From: Baffinella frigidus
Lineage: Eukaryota; Cryptophyceae; Cryptomonadales; Baffinellaceae
NCBI GenBank assembly: GCA_026770585.1
Contig: MU646303.1
Coordinates: 719,730 to 763,425 of the forward strand
DNA length: 43,696 nucleotides
Direction: 5' to 3'
The position numbers and the translations under genes are program-made. The notes under the pieces are model-generated. The model had not been told where the DNA came from, did no database searches, and worked only from the letters and a program-made list of their open reading frames with translations. Below are positions 18,948 to 33,301 of the stretch, piece by piece; position 1 is the stretch's first letter; every line of letters begins with the position of its first letter.

Positions 18948-21900
18948 GTGCAGCCTCCCGCGTGTGTTCGTGCATGCCACCTCGCCGAAGCGTCGCCGGT
19001 GTTTGCTGCCTCGGCAGAGCAGTGTGCCTGGACCCTGCCTGTAGTGACGCGTCCCATCCCGGCGAGCGGCCTTGGGTGAGTACGACACTGGCTGAGTCCT
19101 TGCGCTGGTGTCCTTGGCAGTCGGTGACGGGCTGGCATGACATGGCACGGTGCATAGAGTGCCTCGAAACACACGGGTGGCAGCTGGATGCGGCGGTACA
19201 CGCCGCCTTCAGCCACGGCGAACACGCCCCAGCAGCCGCCCAGGGAGCACGCATGGGCGGGGGCGGGGGGCGAGCTCCCGCTGTGAACCACGTGAACCAC
19301 GAGGTTCCGGACGCCGGAGCAAACGATGGCTCGCCGGGGTGGTTCCACCGCACGACAGGGGTGCCGTTCGTGCGGCTGGCGACGCTGGGCATGCACCGGC
19401 CGGAGGCGCGGAGGCCCGGCAGCGAGAGCCAGCGCTTCCTGGACACGTTTGAGCTGGAGCACGGGCCCGTGCACCCGACACCGCAGGTCTCATCTCGCGC
19501 ACCCTGCACGTGCCTGCGGTTCGCGCGTGCATGCCGCGTGGTTTCCCTGCCTCGCCATGCACCCTGCACCCCCTGCAGGCGCCTCCTCCAACGGAGGAGC
19601 GTGTCTCCCTCTGGTGAGATCGGGCAGCAGGGCGCGTAGTGCGGTGCTGAGACCCCTGTTGGATGCGGGATGGCACGGGTGCTAAACCCTAAACCCTACA
19701 CCCTAAACACTAAACACTAAACACTAAACCCCAAACACCAAACACCAAACACTAAACACTAAACCCTTAACCCTAAATCCTAAACCCTAAACCCTAAATC
19801 CCCACACCCTAAACCCTAAACACAAAACGCAAAACACCCAACACCAAAAACCAAAAACCAAAAACCAAACACCAAACCACCAAACCCCAAACCCCAAACC
19901 CCAAACACAAAACACAAAACACCAAACCCCTAAACCCCTAAACCCCAAACCCCAAACTCCAAACCCCAAAACCTAACTCCTAAACCCCAAAACCCAAAAC
20001 CCCAACTTCCAACCCCCAACCCCCAACCACAAACCCCAAACCCCAAACCCCAAACACCACGCCCCAACCCCAAATGGTCGGGGGGGACGTTCCGCGAGGC
20101 GGTTGATGTGGCGAAGCGGGAGTTCAATTACCTCGTCGTCAGGGCCCCTAGAACCTAATGTTTCGTAGGACCCCCCCCTAGGCCCCTACGGCCTACGGTA
20201 GGCAATACCGTAGGCTTAACTACACGGTTTTCAGGACGTTAGCCTATGAACCCTGAAACCTTCACTCAAAACGCTGACACCCAAATCCCCGAAAAGGTCG
20301 GGACGTTTCGCGAGGCGGTTGATGTGGCGAAGCGGGAGTTAAAGTTCCTTGTATTCTCTGTAGGCCGCTGTGTGGGGGTGGGGGCTGCGCTCGTGTCATC
20401 ACATCCATGTCTAAGATAACATAAAACTTCAGGTGGTGAGGTGGGGGTGAGATTTTTCGGGGGGAAATCAATCTCCCGGCCTGATGTCAATGCCGCACTT
20501 ACCCCAAACACCAAACCCCCCAAATTGGTCGGACGTTCCGCGAGGTGGTCGATGTAGCGAAGCGGGAGTAAAACCTGAACCCTCAATTCTGAACCCTGCA
20601 CCCTCAACGCTAACCCCCAAACCCACATAAAGGTCGGGACGTTCCGCGAGGCGGTTGATTTTGCGAAGCGGGAGTTCAAGTTCCTCGTCGTCTACATCCA
20701 CTCGCCGTACCACCAGGTCCTCCCACCCCTTCAACGCATCGAGCAGAGCGTATCTGAGATTCGAGCAAAGTGTATCTGAGATTCCCAGCAAAGCGTCCCT
20801 GAGATTCGGCCAAATAAGCCGTCCATCTAACATATATAGGAGAATTTGCTAGCCACCTCCTACCGTAGGGTGACCCGTAGGTCATTCAAGTTCGGCGTCA
20901 CCACACACCCTCCCAGGGGCCAGTTCCGGGTGGTGTGCATCCACTCGCCTCACCACCAGGTCCTCCCACCCCTTCCTTAGAAACGGTCCAATAATTAACT
21001 TTAAAATGTTCCCCCGTAGTGTTCCGAGTGGACCGGACACCTTTGGACGCCCAACCCTTCTTCTTCTTCTTTATACTCTCGAAACAGGTCCTAGATAGGC
21101 CCTTTAGCCTTGAGTTGAGTGATACAATGTCTATGGGCCTCAAGAACGAGCCCGTACCAGGAATGAAAATACTACGTCAAAAGTAACTTTCGGGCGTCCA
21201 ACCCGCGTCGGTTGGCTCATTTACAATAGTTGTAAGTCAAAACACTGTCATTTAAAACAGTTGTAAGCCCTGAATTGATTTTAAACGTAAAGCGGACTCC
21301 CCGTTTGCTGTAGCAGCTTGCTGGTCCGCTGGCCACCCGGATACGTCTCTTTCCTATATTGCCCTCAGGTCCTTTTGAAAGGTGGTCAACTTTTGAATCG
21401 TGGTCAACTTTTCAACAGGACACGCCCGAGTTCGTCAAGGAGTGTTTTGTGGCGAGCGCATCAGCACTCTCAACCGTGCCCAACACACCTTCAACCGTGT
21501 CCAGCACACCCGTGGGAGTGTTGGACACACCATGGGGAGTTTCGGACACATCCGGGGGGGGGTTGGACACACCCGGGGGAGTTTTGTACACACCCTGACC
21601 CGTGTCCAACACAGGACACGCCCGAGTTCGTCACAGACGTGGTGTGCACAGAGGTGATGAAGGACTTTGTCGACGACACCTTCGTCTTCTGGATGGGTGC
21701 CACCCCTCACCACACAGCGGGCTGCGAAGGGGAAATGGTTTCATCGACCCATCCACAAGACGATGGTAACCTTTGTCTTCTGGATGGGTGCTCCTCCCAT
21801 ATGGAAACACTCACAAATTTTATATGGAAACACTCACAAATTTTAAACTGGGTTCGATGAAATTTACTACACAGAACGATCTTTACATGTAATGTTAAAG

Positions 21901-24900
21901 CAAACGTGTAGTAATTTTGATTGAAATCCAGCTTATGAATTATGAGTGGTTCCATGTGAAATCTGCCGGGATTCCTGGGATCGGCTTCGCCAGCCACGCC
22001 AGGTCAAAAGTGAGAATTTGTCTTAGATGTGAAAAGGACTTTGTCGACGACACCTTCGTCTTCTGGATAGGTGCCACTCCTCACCACACAGCGGGCTGCG
22101 AAGGGGAAATGGTGTCATCGACCCATCCAGAAGACGAAGGTAACCTTTGTCTTCTGGATGGTGCCGCCCCTCTGCACACACCACACAGCGGGCTACGAAG
22201 GGAAAATGTGATCGACGTCGAGCGACTTTCCGTCGGGACCGCCCTACGAATACCTCCTCCCTGCGGCCCCGCGAGAATCTGCCGGGTTTACTGGGATTTC
22301 ATATGGAATCACTTTTAATTTATAGACGTGGATTCATTCAAAATTACTACACGTTCGCTTTAATATCACTAAATAAAAATCGTTCTGTGTAGTAAATTTC
22401 AATGAACCAAGTCTATAAATTAAAAGTGTTTCCATATCAGATTGACTTCGCCAGGTCACAAGTGGGAATTTGCCTTGGTTAATCCTGAGTTTTTTTTCCA
22501 CGGAAACACACCAAAATTCGGCAATTGGGGCCATGGACATGCGCAATGATGTTTCATTCGTACCGGGAAACACCTTGAAAAGGAGGGAGCCTCAACCTTG
22601 AATTTTCATGTGTGACCTGGCGTGGTCCCCGCGGCAGGTTTCATCCGGGCACAAGTATTTTTCTTTCAAAAATCTGCATGAAAATTACTGCTCAAATGCT
22701 TCGGGGCGTGATCCGTGTGTGGTGATTTTATTTGCAGATTTTCAAAAGAAACATTCGTGTTCCCGGATTAAGTTCGGTCATCAACCCCGAAGCGTACAAC
22801 GTCTCCGCGCTTCTCCGTGCATCTGGATACTTTCCCCTACTTTCTTCTTTTTCCTACTCTCAAGCCTCCACACAGCGGGCTGCAAAGGGATTTTCGGCCC
22901 AAATCGGGCCACCTTCCCGCTGTGTGGGGAGATGAGTGATCCAACATCTATGAACCTTACGAAGAGCCCGCCTTGGTACAGGTTCGGTCCTCAACCCCGA
23001 AGCGTACAACGTCTCCGCGCTTCTCCGCGCTTCAGGGTACCCCTTCGTGGCAGTCATCACCACGACTATCGACAACCACACCACGGTCCGGCCCCATCAT
23101 GTTCATCCAGAGCCCCCACCACACAGAGGGCTACGAAGTTGGTTTATGCACGGGTTTCCGTTACCTTATCCGTAGTAGCCCCTCATGTTCCTACGGGTTG
23201 CCTACCGTAAGGTCCTAGGTCTTATTATCGCTCAGGGGTTATTCAAAATCCCTTCGAAGTCCGCTGTGTGGTGTGTTCTTTTTGAGCCCCATCCCGTGCG
23301 TCTTTGCTTCCTGTAGAGCTTTTGGGTACCCCTTCGTGGCGGCCATCACCACCACCATCGACAACCACACCACGGCCCGGCCCCATTTTCTTCATCCAGA
23401 TCATCCAGAGCCCCCGTTGTGTTCATTAAGAGCACCATCCCGTTCATCTTTGCTTCCCGTAGAGCATTTGGGTACCCTTTTGTGGCGGTCATCACCACGA
23501 CCATCGACAACCACACCACGGCCCGGCCCCATTTTCTTCATCCAGATCATCCAGAGCCCCCGTTGTGTTCATTGAGAGCACCATCCCGTTCGTCTTTGCT
23601 TCCCGTAGAGCATTTGGGTACCCCTTCGTGGCGGTCATCACCACGACCATCGACAACCACACCACGGTCTCGCCCCCATCCCACTTAATTTCGGAACAAG
23701 ACAGATTCGGTCCCGCTATCTTAGGCTTCCGACGCCGAAGATCAGGGTGTATATTCTATGTTAGGCATACAATGATGGTATTTTACGCCTTTTTGTGTGG
23801 ACTTTGGAGTTTCCTCCTGCCCCAAAATGTCCCCACCGACCCCGACACAGCGCCTGCACGCACGGATGAGAGCATGTGCAGCTGGAGTATTTTGCGTGAC
23901 GATTCTTACCGCACACCCAGGTCTGTGACGCGCACAAGGGACTCGTGGGGCACTGATGAACTTTCTCGCGGGTTCAGGGTTCAGGTGTCCGGGTTCATGG
24001 TTCAGGGGGTAGGTCGTGGACGGGCATGACGAGACCGTGTCGGCAGTGCAGTAATCCCTGGACGCACACCCAGGTGTGTGACGCGCACGAGGGGCTGGTC
24101 GGGCGCGAGGAGCTGATGAACTGGCTGCTCAACATCGTCGAGACGCAGGGCCCGCAACTCGTCGTCCAGCGCGCCGAGGCTGAGGCACCTCCCTCTACCT
24201 CTGTCCCACTTTGGTTTGGGCGCCTCATCAATTCGCCCCCCCTCCCAATTTCCAACGTGGATTTTGCCCCCCCCCCCCCTAGGATATTCAAATGTTTGTC
24301 GTCCAGCGCCCCGAGGCAGAGGTAGAGCGGCGTTCAAAAACGTTACAAACCTGGTGAATATTGATGTCTTGGCGTTACAAAATTGGTGAAAGTTGACGTG
24401 TTTGTACCAGTTTTTGAACCTCATATTTCAAAAAACTGGTGAAAGTTGACGTGTGTGTACCGTTTGGATTGTGTTTTTAGCTGGCTGCTCAACATCGTCG
24501 AGACGCAGGACCCGCAGCTTGTGGTCCAGCGCGCCGAGGCTGAGGTCCACTCCAGGCTGGAAGAGCAGTATTTTTAAATGTGGGGGTTTTAAAATTTGTA
24601 CCAATCACGGGCGGGTTTGGTCGCGTAGGTCCCGTATATACGGGAGCTCGTCGTGCAGCGCGCCGAGGTTGAGGTAAGGGTCAAATCGTTGACGATGCTG
24701 GCACTCGACTGTCACCTGTTGTCAGTGTTTCATTGGTTTGGTGCCAACAGATGTGAAAACCCCTCTACAGGTTAAGGGTGCACGCCCCCATTCCGGCGTC
24801 GACCTGATGACACTCCGAGCCAGAACATTTCGCCTAAGTCAACTCCCCCTGAAGACCACAGCCTTAAGTCAAATGCCGGCTCCCAGAGCCGGTCCATCTA

Positions 24901-33135: not shown

Positions 33136-33301
33136 GGGTCACGCTCGAGGAGGCAGGGCTGGCGCCTTTAGGTCCTTTAGGTTTTAATTTCTCCCAACAT
33201 AGCCCAACGACACGCCCTTCCGTAGAAAGGACTGCAGAGAAAGCATTTTTGCTTTCGGATCGCGTCCGCAGGCCATGCGATTTGTGCATGAAGCCCTCTA
33301 G
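33136..33301 (+). pseudogene. Echo of FAF2-like exon 12 interrupted by element T
   Basis: 33136-33167 reads GVTLEEAGLAP. Element T (inverted) fills 33168-33268. 33269-33301 then resumes with AMRFVHEAL and TAG. The insertion point is the PQ codon pair of the real exon. Confidence 0.88.

Follow-up and report, generated by a model that had tools for sequence, protein, structure and literature searches.

Intron lengthening is usually ascribed to transposons and to slow drift. Short sequences are also copied locally in other settings, such as the short paired duplications of mammals, which are paired local short copies and for which we know of no exon anchoring or polarity, and the paired-nick duplications of plants, which are kin of small tandem duplications. 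Here we analyze exon echoes, that is, degraded copies of exons lying in the introns or the 3′ flank of the same gene, in a FAF2-like gene of the cryptophyte Baffinella frigidus contained in a stretch of 43,696 nucleotides (the window; assembly GCA_026770585.1, contig MU646303.1, positions 719,730 to 763,425). Among published systems, described here from the accessible parts of the papers cited, the nearest is that of the human repair-mediated duplications (RDs; Pace et al. 2009, PMC2671141), 824 in number, with copies less than 5 kb apart and up to 619 bp long, which were ascribed to synthesis-dependent repair, some of the breakpoints containing filler DNA, and four of which have partial exon/intron donors. 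RDs and echoes have in common that the copies are short and closely linked. The spacers found here look filler-like. A break-end mechanism has been described for small tandem duplications (Schimmel et al. 2021, PMC8355091), and local copying of exons or remodelling of introns is also found in tandem exon duplication, in intron gain and in introners, which are compared below.

The source assembly comprises 382 Mb in 1364 contigs. On the plus strand of the window, a complete gene of 12 exons with sequence-predicted borders lies between 18915 and 31799, and its joined frame of 1281 bp codes for 426 residues followed by a stop. In this product Pfam recognized UBA_4 (E 2e-9) and UBX (E 9e-15) domains, which makes the gene FAF2/UBXD8-like; the name FAF2, which we take to be appropriate, comes from an earlier, sequence-only reading of the window and from the human sequence. 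The donor is GT at nine of the 11 introns and GC at the two after exons 6 and 7, and 10 of the 11 acceptors have AG/G (the slash marks the splice site). The exons, all within the joined open frame and, from exon 3 on, parents of echoes, are the following.

18915-18947 and 19121-19486, plus strand: exons 1 and 2, no echo above null
20633-20716, plus strand: exon 3
21615-21696, plus strand: exon 4
22982-23085, plus strand: exon 5
24074-24184, plus strand: exon 6, GC donor
25704-25769, plus strand: exon 7, GC donor
27018-27098, plus strand: exon 8
27848-27916, plus strand: exon 9
28703-28773, plus strand: exon 10
29878-29986, plus strand: exon 11
31695-31799, plus strand: exon 12, its last codon being the stop

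The exon echoes of this gene are real. They were searched by self-comparison after masking of simple repeats and then by alignment of the individual exons to the gene region; the null consisted of 18 kb from elsewhere in the window, taken in both orientations, and of the gene region reverse-complemented. For every exon from 3 to 12 (10/10), one or more echoes outscored the highest null match of the same exon; they were located in the adjacent intron or the 3′ flank and in direct orientation, whereas no echo of exons 1 and 2 exceeded the null in the gene region, just as the sequence-only reading had proposed. Its count of about 28 became about 26 above null, a number taken from the exon-alignment list that leaves out cross-hits between exons 8 and 9 (coiled coil), a 13-bp match and two exon 10 matches at distances above 1.6 kb; when BLAST pairs at E<=1e-3 were counted instead, a stricter measure that takes in the flanks, there were 21 exon-echo pairs, 21/21 of them direct. 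None of the 15 inverted local pairs in the gene touches an exon, and the upstream matches of exon 11 fell below their null. Echoes lie at 34-531 bp from the parent exon, with the exception of one exon 12 echo at 1.3-1.5 kb, and their identities to it of 78-97% indicate events of different ages. They are listed below with the exon bases that they copy and the percentage of identity or the alignment score.

20084-20140, plus strand: exon 3 upstream echo, bases 4-60, 93%
20253-20357, plus strand: exon 3 upstream echo, 44 bp of intron and bases 1-61, 83%, E 5e-25
20498-20569, plus strand: exon 3 upstream echo, 30 bp of intron and bases 1-43, 78%
20922-20975, plus strand: exon 3 downstream echo, bases 47-84 and 16 bp of intron, 87%
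21419-21449, plus strand: exon 4 upstream echo, bases 1-32, marginal (score 19.7, null 19.0)
22025-22161, plus strand: exon 4 downstream echo, bases 36-82 and 91 bp of intron, 94% over 138 bp
22143-22208, plus strand: exon 4 downstream echo, last 19 bases and intron, 82%, E 2e-7, the exon part alone scoring below null
22772-22830, plus strand: exon 5 upstream echo, bases 1-59, 92%
23318-23386, plus strand: exon 5 downstream echo, bases 48-104, unit 1 of a 146-bp tandem array, 90%
23470-23532, plus strand: exon 5 downstream echo, bases 54-104, unit 2 of the array, 92%
23616-23680, plus strand: exon 5 downstream echo, bases 54-104, unit 3 of the array, 94%
23910-23962, plus strand: exon 6 upstream echo, 11 bp of intron and bases 1-49, 88%
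24298-24321, plus strand: exon 6 downstream echo, bases 88-111 (score 19.6, null 14.0)
24481-24545, plus strand: exon 6 downstream echo, bases 48-111, then GT, 94%
24647-24674, plus strand: exon 6 downstream echo, bases 85-111, then GTAAGG, 93%
25150-25224, plus strand: exon 7 upstream echo, 23 bp of intron and bases 1-52, 85%
25415-25480, plus strand: exon 7 upstream echo, 18 bp of intron and bases 1-48, 86%
26560-26588, plus strand: exon 8 upstream echo, bases 1-29, weak (score 15.8, null 14.7)
27273-27447, plus strand: exon 8 downstream echo, bases 17-81 and intron minisatellite, 85% over 181 bp, exon part 97%
27635-27705, plus strand: exon 9 upstream echo, 9 bp of intron and bases 1-62, 87%
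28889-28950, plus strand: exon 10 downstream echo, bases 50-71 and 40 bp of intron, 95%
29021-29043, plus strand: exon 10 downstream echo, short, bases 46-71 (score 14.1, null 12.2)
29134-29183, plus strand: exon 10 downstream echo, bases 34-71 and 12 bp of intron, 90%
29257-29277, plus strand: exon 10 downstream echo, short, bases 50-70 (score 18.8, null 12.2)
30402-30479, plus strand: exon 11 downstream echo, bases 45-109 and intron, 86-88%, with a 10-N gap in a TA repeat between exon and echo
32133-32162, plus strand: exon 12 downstream echo, bases 77-105 (score 17.7, null 13.9)
33123-33335, plus strand: exon 12 downstream echo, bases 24-105, interrupted by a 101-bp repeat (33165-33265), found by BLAST and by exon alignment

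The part of the exon that is copied depends on the side on which the echo lies, in such a way that upstream echoes carry the exon 5′ part with its acceptor and downstream echoes the exon 3′ part with its donor. All 13 downstream BLAST pairs of the FAF2-like gene include the exon 3′ end and lack the 5′ end, and the eight upstream pairs show the reverse; the former description of the echoes as partial from either end was right in that they are partial, and is replaced by a position-dependent rule (21/21). The same was found in DNA sampled elsewhere in the assembly. In a myosin gene (stretch L022) eight downstream and four upstream partial echoes conform, two more pairs being whole-exon copies; a single exon of stretch L032 has five downstream and three upstream echoes, all conforming; and an exon of apparently the same myosin gene in stretch L033 has two downstream echoes (three BLAST pieces), which also conform. 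For these counts exon borders were set by hand in L022 and L032 and by script in L033, and a 31-bp match in L032 (3760-3790) to the exon middle, beside an upstream echo, was not counted separately. Altogether, 43/43 partial echoes in the inspected exons follow the rule, and so do 26/26 exon sides counted once each, a count made because one echo may be a copy of another echo of the same exon. This order is to be expected when a duplication has one end in the exon and the other in the intron and the exon must stay whole. In the RD model, as we read it from the accessible part of the paper (PMC2671141), the copied part and its position bear no relation to donor polarity, in contrast to the 43/43 found here, and whereas four of 824 human RDs have partial-exon donors, here 21-26 exon-edge copies of fixed polarity and direct orientation occur in one gene.

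The exons are rarely copied as wholes. A span of the whole exon with both splice sites was found in 0/21 pairs of the FAF2-like gene, in 2/14 of the myosin gene (both from exon a) and in 4/33 of looser exon calls in stretches L021 and L023, and the exon part of aligned partial echoes reaches at most about 82 bp, even for exons of 113-193 bp. Tandem exon duplication, including that of mutually exclusive exons, resembles the echoes in consisting of local direct exon copies; as far as the accessible text goes (PMC9013439), exons are there chosen as wholes, whereas here the copies are mostly halves with one splice site.

Similar echoes in other genes, whose absence had been named as grounds for dropping the idea, are present in the myosin gene, the L032 exon and other stretches on other contigs. 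The sample consisted of 20 stretches of 10 kb, of which 14 were wholly N, one (L012) held only 2.2 kb and five were usable, to which four stretches and then two more (one all N, one mostly N) were added; it is small, with fewer than 10 gene-bearing stretches, and local pairs were searched within 5 kb. Outside simple and dispersed repeats, the first sample gave 174 direct against 10 inverted local pairs, with a median length of 61 bp and a gap below 1.5 kb in 171/174 direct pairs. Without the dispersed-repeat filter, the direct and inverted counts were 33/0 in L021, 17/0 in L022, 31/3 in L023, 32/1 in L032 (part of them satellite), 53/3 in the stretch upstream of the FAF2-like gene and 41/15 in the gene itself; L010 (17/7), L011 (26/5) and L030 (16/7) are stretches without confident exons. 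The identity of the L022 gene rests on 16 hand-placed exons, whose joined peptides match Pfam Myosin_head (E 1e-43) and solved myosins. This recurrence bears on the idea that the copies are an assembly artefact, produced by stitching haplotypes or reads. The assembly does have N gaps and long unreadable stretches, and the 10-N gap between exon 11 and its echo has been listed above. However, the same pattern appears on several contigs, no N run lies between the other exons and echoes of the FAF2-like gene or inside L022 and L023, the copies differ by 3-22%, and eight echoes of one exon with differing divergence cannot be two haplotypes, so that an artefact is very improbable.

The duplications themselves are short and direct, comprising about 50 bp of exon and usually a few intron bases, and are separated from the intact exon mostly by 50-500 bp of other DNA, the layout being either exon 5′ part, spacer and whole exon, or whole exon, spacer and exon 3′ part. 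The explanation that we favor, to which we give a probability of roughly 0.4, is copying during break repair, in which a spacer is inserted, the exon edge is copied again and the products are filtered for an intact, spliceable exon. The break would fall in the exon or beside it, and repair would copy the edge sequence a second time, either by fill-in of a staggered break or by a template switch that returns across the splice site, and filler (a mobile-element piece, telomere-like satellite or other DNA) would be joined between the copies. The survivors would be the products with one complete exon and usable splice sites, duplications within the exon being lost to selection. The truncated copy and the spacer would thus become intron, with a growth of about 200 bp per event, and the echo would drift afterwards while the exon remains constrained. 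The idea of a nested insertion, in which a single break yields echoes on both sides of the exon, was considered by visual inspection and dropped.

The spacing of the copies separates this explanation from plain tandem duplication. Over 162 local direct pairs the median gap was 180 bp, only 7/162 pairs being within 10 bp, and the gap was not related to identity either in these pairs (rho 0.05, P 0.53) or in 33 exon-echo pairs (rho -0.02); its median was 156 bp at >=94% identity (15 pairs) and 212 bp at 70-80%. As the gap is much the same in young and old pairs, the spacer seems to arise together with the duplication or very soon after it, and later spacer growth was rejected for lack of correlation with divergence. 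A short tandem duplication across the splice site, with copies parted later by ordinary intron growth, would agree with the polarity, with the seven closest pairs and with the genuine 146-bp tandem array in intron 5, but it is unlikely, given that 155/162 pairs are more than 10 bp apart and that the gap does not rise with divergence. The small tandem duplications of the literature (PMC8355091, accessible part) are alike in direct orientation (174 against 10 here), shortness and copy order; their copies abut, in contrast to the age-independent median gap of 180 bp found here. Of the earlier proposal that introns grew by local tandem duplication, two parts are supported, the repeated local direct duplication across splice junctions and the growth of introns, and the plain tandem form is not. 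Introns 2-11 add up to 11431 bp, of which 5674 fall between an exon and the most distant of its echoes (5446 without the sub-null exon 11 upstream match).

The spacers are of several types: inverted-repeat elements, telomere-like CCCTAAA satellite, a 21-bp minisatellite, TA repeat and unmatched DNA. No match elsewhere in the sampled DNA was found for 15/44 tested spacers, a few of these being satellite masked by the low-complexity filter. Such a mixture of flush element pieces, satellite, TA repeat and unmatched DNA is as expected of filler. Dispersed inverted-repeat elements are present in the same introns in both orientations, and also at other loci, as something separate from the echoes. 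Mobile-element insertion with a very long target-site duplication could explain a case such as the spacer downstream of exon 10 (28814-28888), whose start coincides with the terminus of an element family and which directly abuts a 62-bp repeat on either side, and 3/67 near-full-length copies from eight element sets are indeed bracketed by a direct repeat lying no more than 15 bp from each end (72 bp long at myosin exon l, 60 bp in intron 11 at 30943-31067, where no exon is involved, and 34 bp in L012). Against this, 64/67 copies, including 14/14 of CCACTCGAGG and 9/9 of CCACTTAG, have no long direct repeat at both ends, the exon 10 spacer is just about half of its 140-bp family, and other spacers are unmatched or satellite. 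Element insertion as such does not create the duplications, although elements can serve as spacer, and long target-site duplication, largely refuted as a general cause, is very improbable.

An introner-like insertion bringing splice signals at the inner edges of the echoes was also rejected, because the spacers are heterogeneous and the signals show no clear excess. AG was found at 15/40 downstream inner edges, against 11.1 by chance (reached in 199/2000 trials), and GT at 9/18 upstream inner edges, against 5.7 (108/2000); unlike introners, the echoes have inner edges without AG or GT clearly above chance. Intron gain by tandem duplication (PMC4974935) and introners (PMC7789003, PMC12730881) are comparable to the echoes in that introns are remodelled by duplication or mobile elements, but in the accessible parts of these papers new introns are made, whereas here existing introns are lengthened. 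The chlorarachniophyte genome of PMC12730881 shows longer introns together with intron gain in another alga, and the exon-edge echo pattern was not found in the accessible parts of that paper.

Mismatches between echoes and parent exons were counted by codon position, which gave 18/17/64 for the FAF2-like gene, 14/15/42 for the myosin gene and 51/43/83 for four further loci, four L021 pairs with an ambiguous reading frame being skipped. Pooled over the six loci (83/75/189), third positions account for 54%, far above 33% and compatible with 50% (P 0.11), which is the expectation for a freely drifting echo and a parent exon changing only at silent sites. Stops occurred in 0/252, 1/180 and 1/279 ungapped echo codons of the FAF2-like gene, the myosin gene and the four further loci, with 6 indels in 22, 4 in 12 and 13 in 25 alignments, respectively, so that the former claim that echoes accumulate stops and frameshifts is weak for the FAF2-like gene. 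Coding constraint on the echoes, a candidate drawn from the FAF2-like and myosin genes, was unsupported as a general rule by the four further loci. Echoes could also be retired exons, that is, former working exons or halves whose introns have fully diverged and which went out of use recently. The few stops, the third-position excess in the FAF2-like gene and in eight echo-echo comparisons (6, 8 and 19 mismatches by codon position; these comparisons are not independent) and the whole-exon copies of myosin exon a would fit, but retirement does not predict the polarity, whole-exon copies are as scarce as described above, and the third-position share over all loci fits neutral echoes, which makes this origin improbable.

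Several results weigh against copying during break repair as we have outlined it. Among computer-called exons (L021, L023, L029 and the upstream stretch) 24/31 echoes conform to the polarity, four are contrary and three internal; this count leaves out exons scoring below 11 and echoes overlapping another called exon. With the looser calls in L021 and L023, 24/33 conform, three are contrary, four are whole-exon and two internal. One contrary case (L021 1462-1545), which by eye resembles a whole-exon copy with an internal deletion, was kept as contrary. Plain break repair should also strike introns and intergenic DNA, whereas exon-touching direct pairs were 21/41 in the FAF2-like gene (circular-shift mean 9.6; 0/2000 shifts reach 21) and 14/17 in the myosin gene (mean 6.8; 0/2000 reach 14), roughly a twofold exon excess. 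Random breakpoints would give sides of equal length, and in 33 pairs of the FAF2-like and myosin genes homology extends over a median of 51 bp of exon and 9 bp of intron (P 7e-6). In the FAF2-like gene alone, 65% of mismatches are at third positions, a higher share than the explanation permits (P 0.005), and the loci differ (P 0.017). Finally, no direct excess was found in L029 (7/6), which carries a methyltransferase-like exon of 430 bp, in L031 (9/6), which carries the start of a class I tRNA synthetase, or in the downstream stretch (7/9), a total of 23 direct against 21 inverted pairs.

Some of these points can be read in more than one way. Several of the non-exon direct pairs are echo-echo or element pairs, and at least one, in intron 11, is an intron-only 60-bp duplication with spacer (30872-30931, 31069-31129 and 31195-31255), with TACAGGGGTACC elements between the copies and no exon. 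Conservation of the parent exon keeps exon-echo pairs recognizable for longer than pairs within introns, so that a twofold excess alone is no proof of targeting; nevertheless, the stretches without direct excess and the mostly exonic copies make us lean towards real exon targeting. The pattern is associated with some genes and not with all DNA: other genes on other contigs show it, and it is not uniform in the genome. As for the intron side, 20-100 bp of intron had been said to be often kept, which is true of a minority, since 13/33 pairs keep 5 bp or less; masking of satellite cuts some intron sides short (exon 8), and in unmasked flanks many stop a few bases from the splice site, while those of exons 3, 4, 8 and 10 extend from 16 bp to more than 90 bp. 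Short intron sides could alternatively result from selection against complete decoy splice sites.

The main alternative is copying from a diverged homologue, which accounts better for the preference for exons and for homology that reaches so little into the intron. In such a one-sided invasion, one broken end would prime on the other haplotype within the exon, copy past the splice site into its intron and be end-joined back, in such a way that the spacer would be the intron of the other haplotype and the echo the old exon edge. It would explain why homology often ends near the splice site, why exons are preferred, only they being alike enough for priming, why the gap is independent of age, and the third-position excess of the FAF2-like gene, which leaves room for echoes that descend from a divergent allele or were used for some while. 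Nevertheless, that excess is not shared by all loci (third positions make up 46% in L032 and 35% in the upstream stretch), some events would have left just 7-16 bp of exon for priming (exons 8 and 9, myosin exons h and l), and the exon part of the aligned partial echoes stays within about 82 bp, also in exons of 113-193 bp, so that we regard this route as unlikely.

Further features were observed at and around the echoes. The exon 6 echo at 24647-24674 has a near-consensus donor (GAG/GTAAGG), in contrast to the GC donor of the working exon, as if the echo were an older exon end. By eye, a short exon 7 downstream echo (25883-26115) seems to be split by a 210-bp CCACTCGAGG element (25893-26102), in the order CTCCAGGCAA, element, AAGTCCTTCTTC. 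The 101-bp repeat that splits the exon 12 echo has further copies, 94-97% identical, at 32592-32692 and 34295-34395. A TACAGGGGTACC inverted-repeat element starts right after the stop codon of the gene (31800-31925), and another copy follows the echo ending at 33301. A CAACCGTGTCCAACACACT-like 21-bp minisatellite is common to two introns, by exons 4 and 8 (21464-21612 and 27101-27447). In L022 a telomere-like satellite of degenerate CCCTAAA repeats makes up most of the myosin introns, its C-rich strand being the sense strand; by eye and with exceptions, satellite orientation is alike in the FAF2-like gene (19684-20074) and, mostly, in upstream minus-strand genes, and since TTTAGGG on the sense strand would mimic acceptors (AG/G), selection may set this orientation. 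L022 also has three whole copies of one myosin exon (190-281, 420-511 and 698-769), two of them frame-intact by eye, which are possible working alternative exons. The densest case observed is L032 (2051-4119, minus strand), with eight echoes of a single exon. Next to the FAF2-like gene, one unbroken open frame of 300 codons, some 270 of which follow the likely start (17819-18718, minus strand), has a signal-like beginning, and no Pfam match was found for it.

Exon-edge copies as a general genome feature were not found in the titles and abstracts of the literature searched, in which subscription papers are mostly not covered, so that this is weak evidence of novelty. It is possible, though doubtful, that a copying process acting on exon edges and anchored to splice junctions operates in this genome, repeatedly re-copying exon halves and pushing the old half into the intron. 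If so, this would be an undescribed route of intron growth, and introns would be a layered record of past exon versions; in this one gene, about half of the DNA of introns 2-11 sits between an exon and part-copies of itself. As the parent exon is held by selection, an echo can be dated and its exon breakpoint located with nearly single-base precision, something seldom achievable for DNA in introns. If the polarity and spacing hold genome-wide, the organism would offer a natural archive of a very large number of break-repair events that have been sorted through the filter of splicing.

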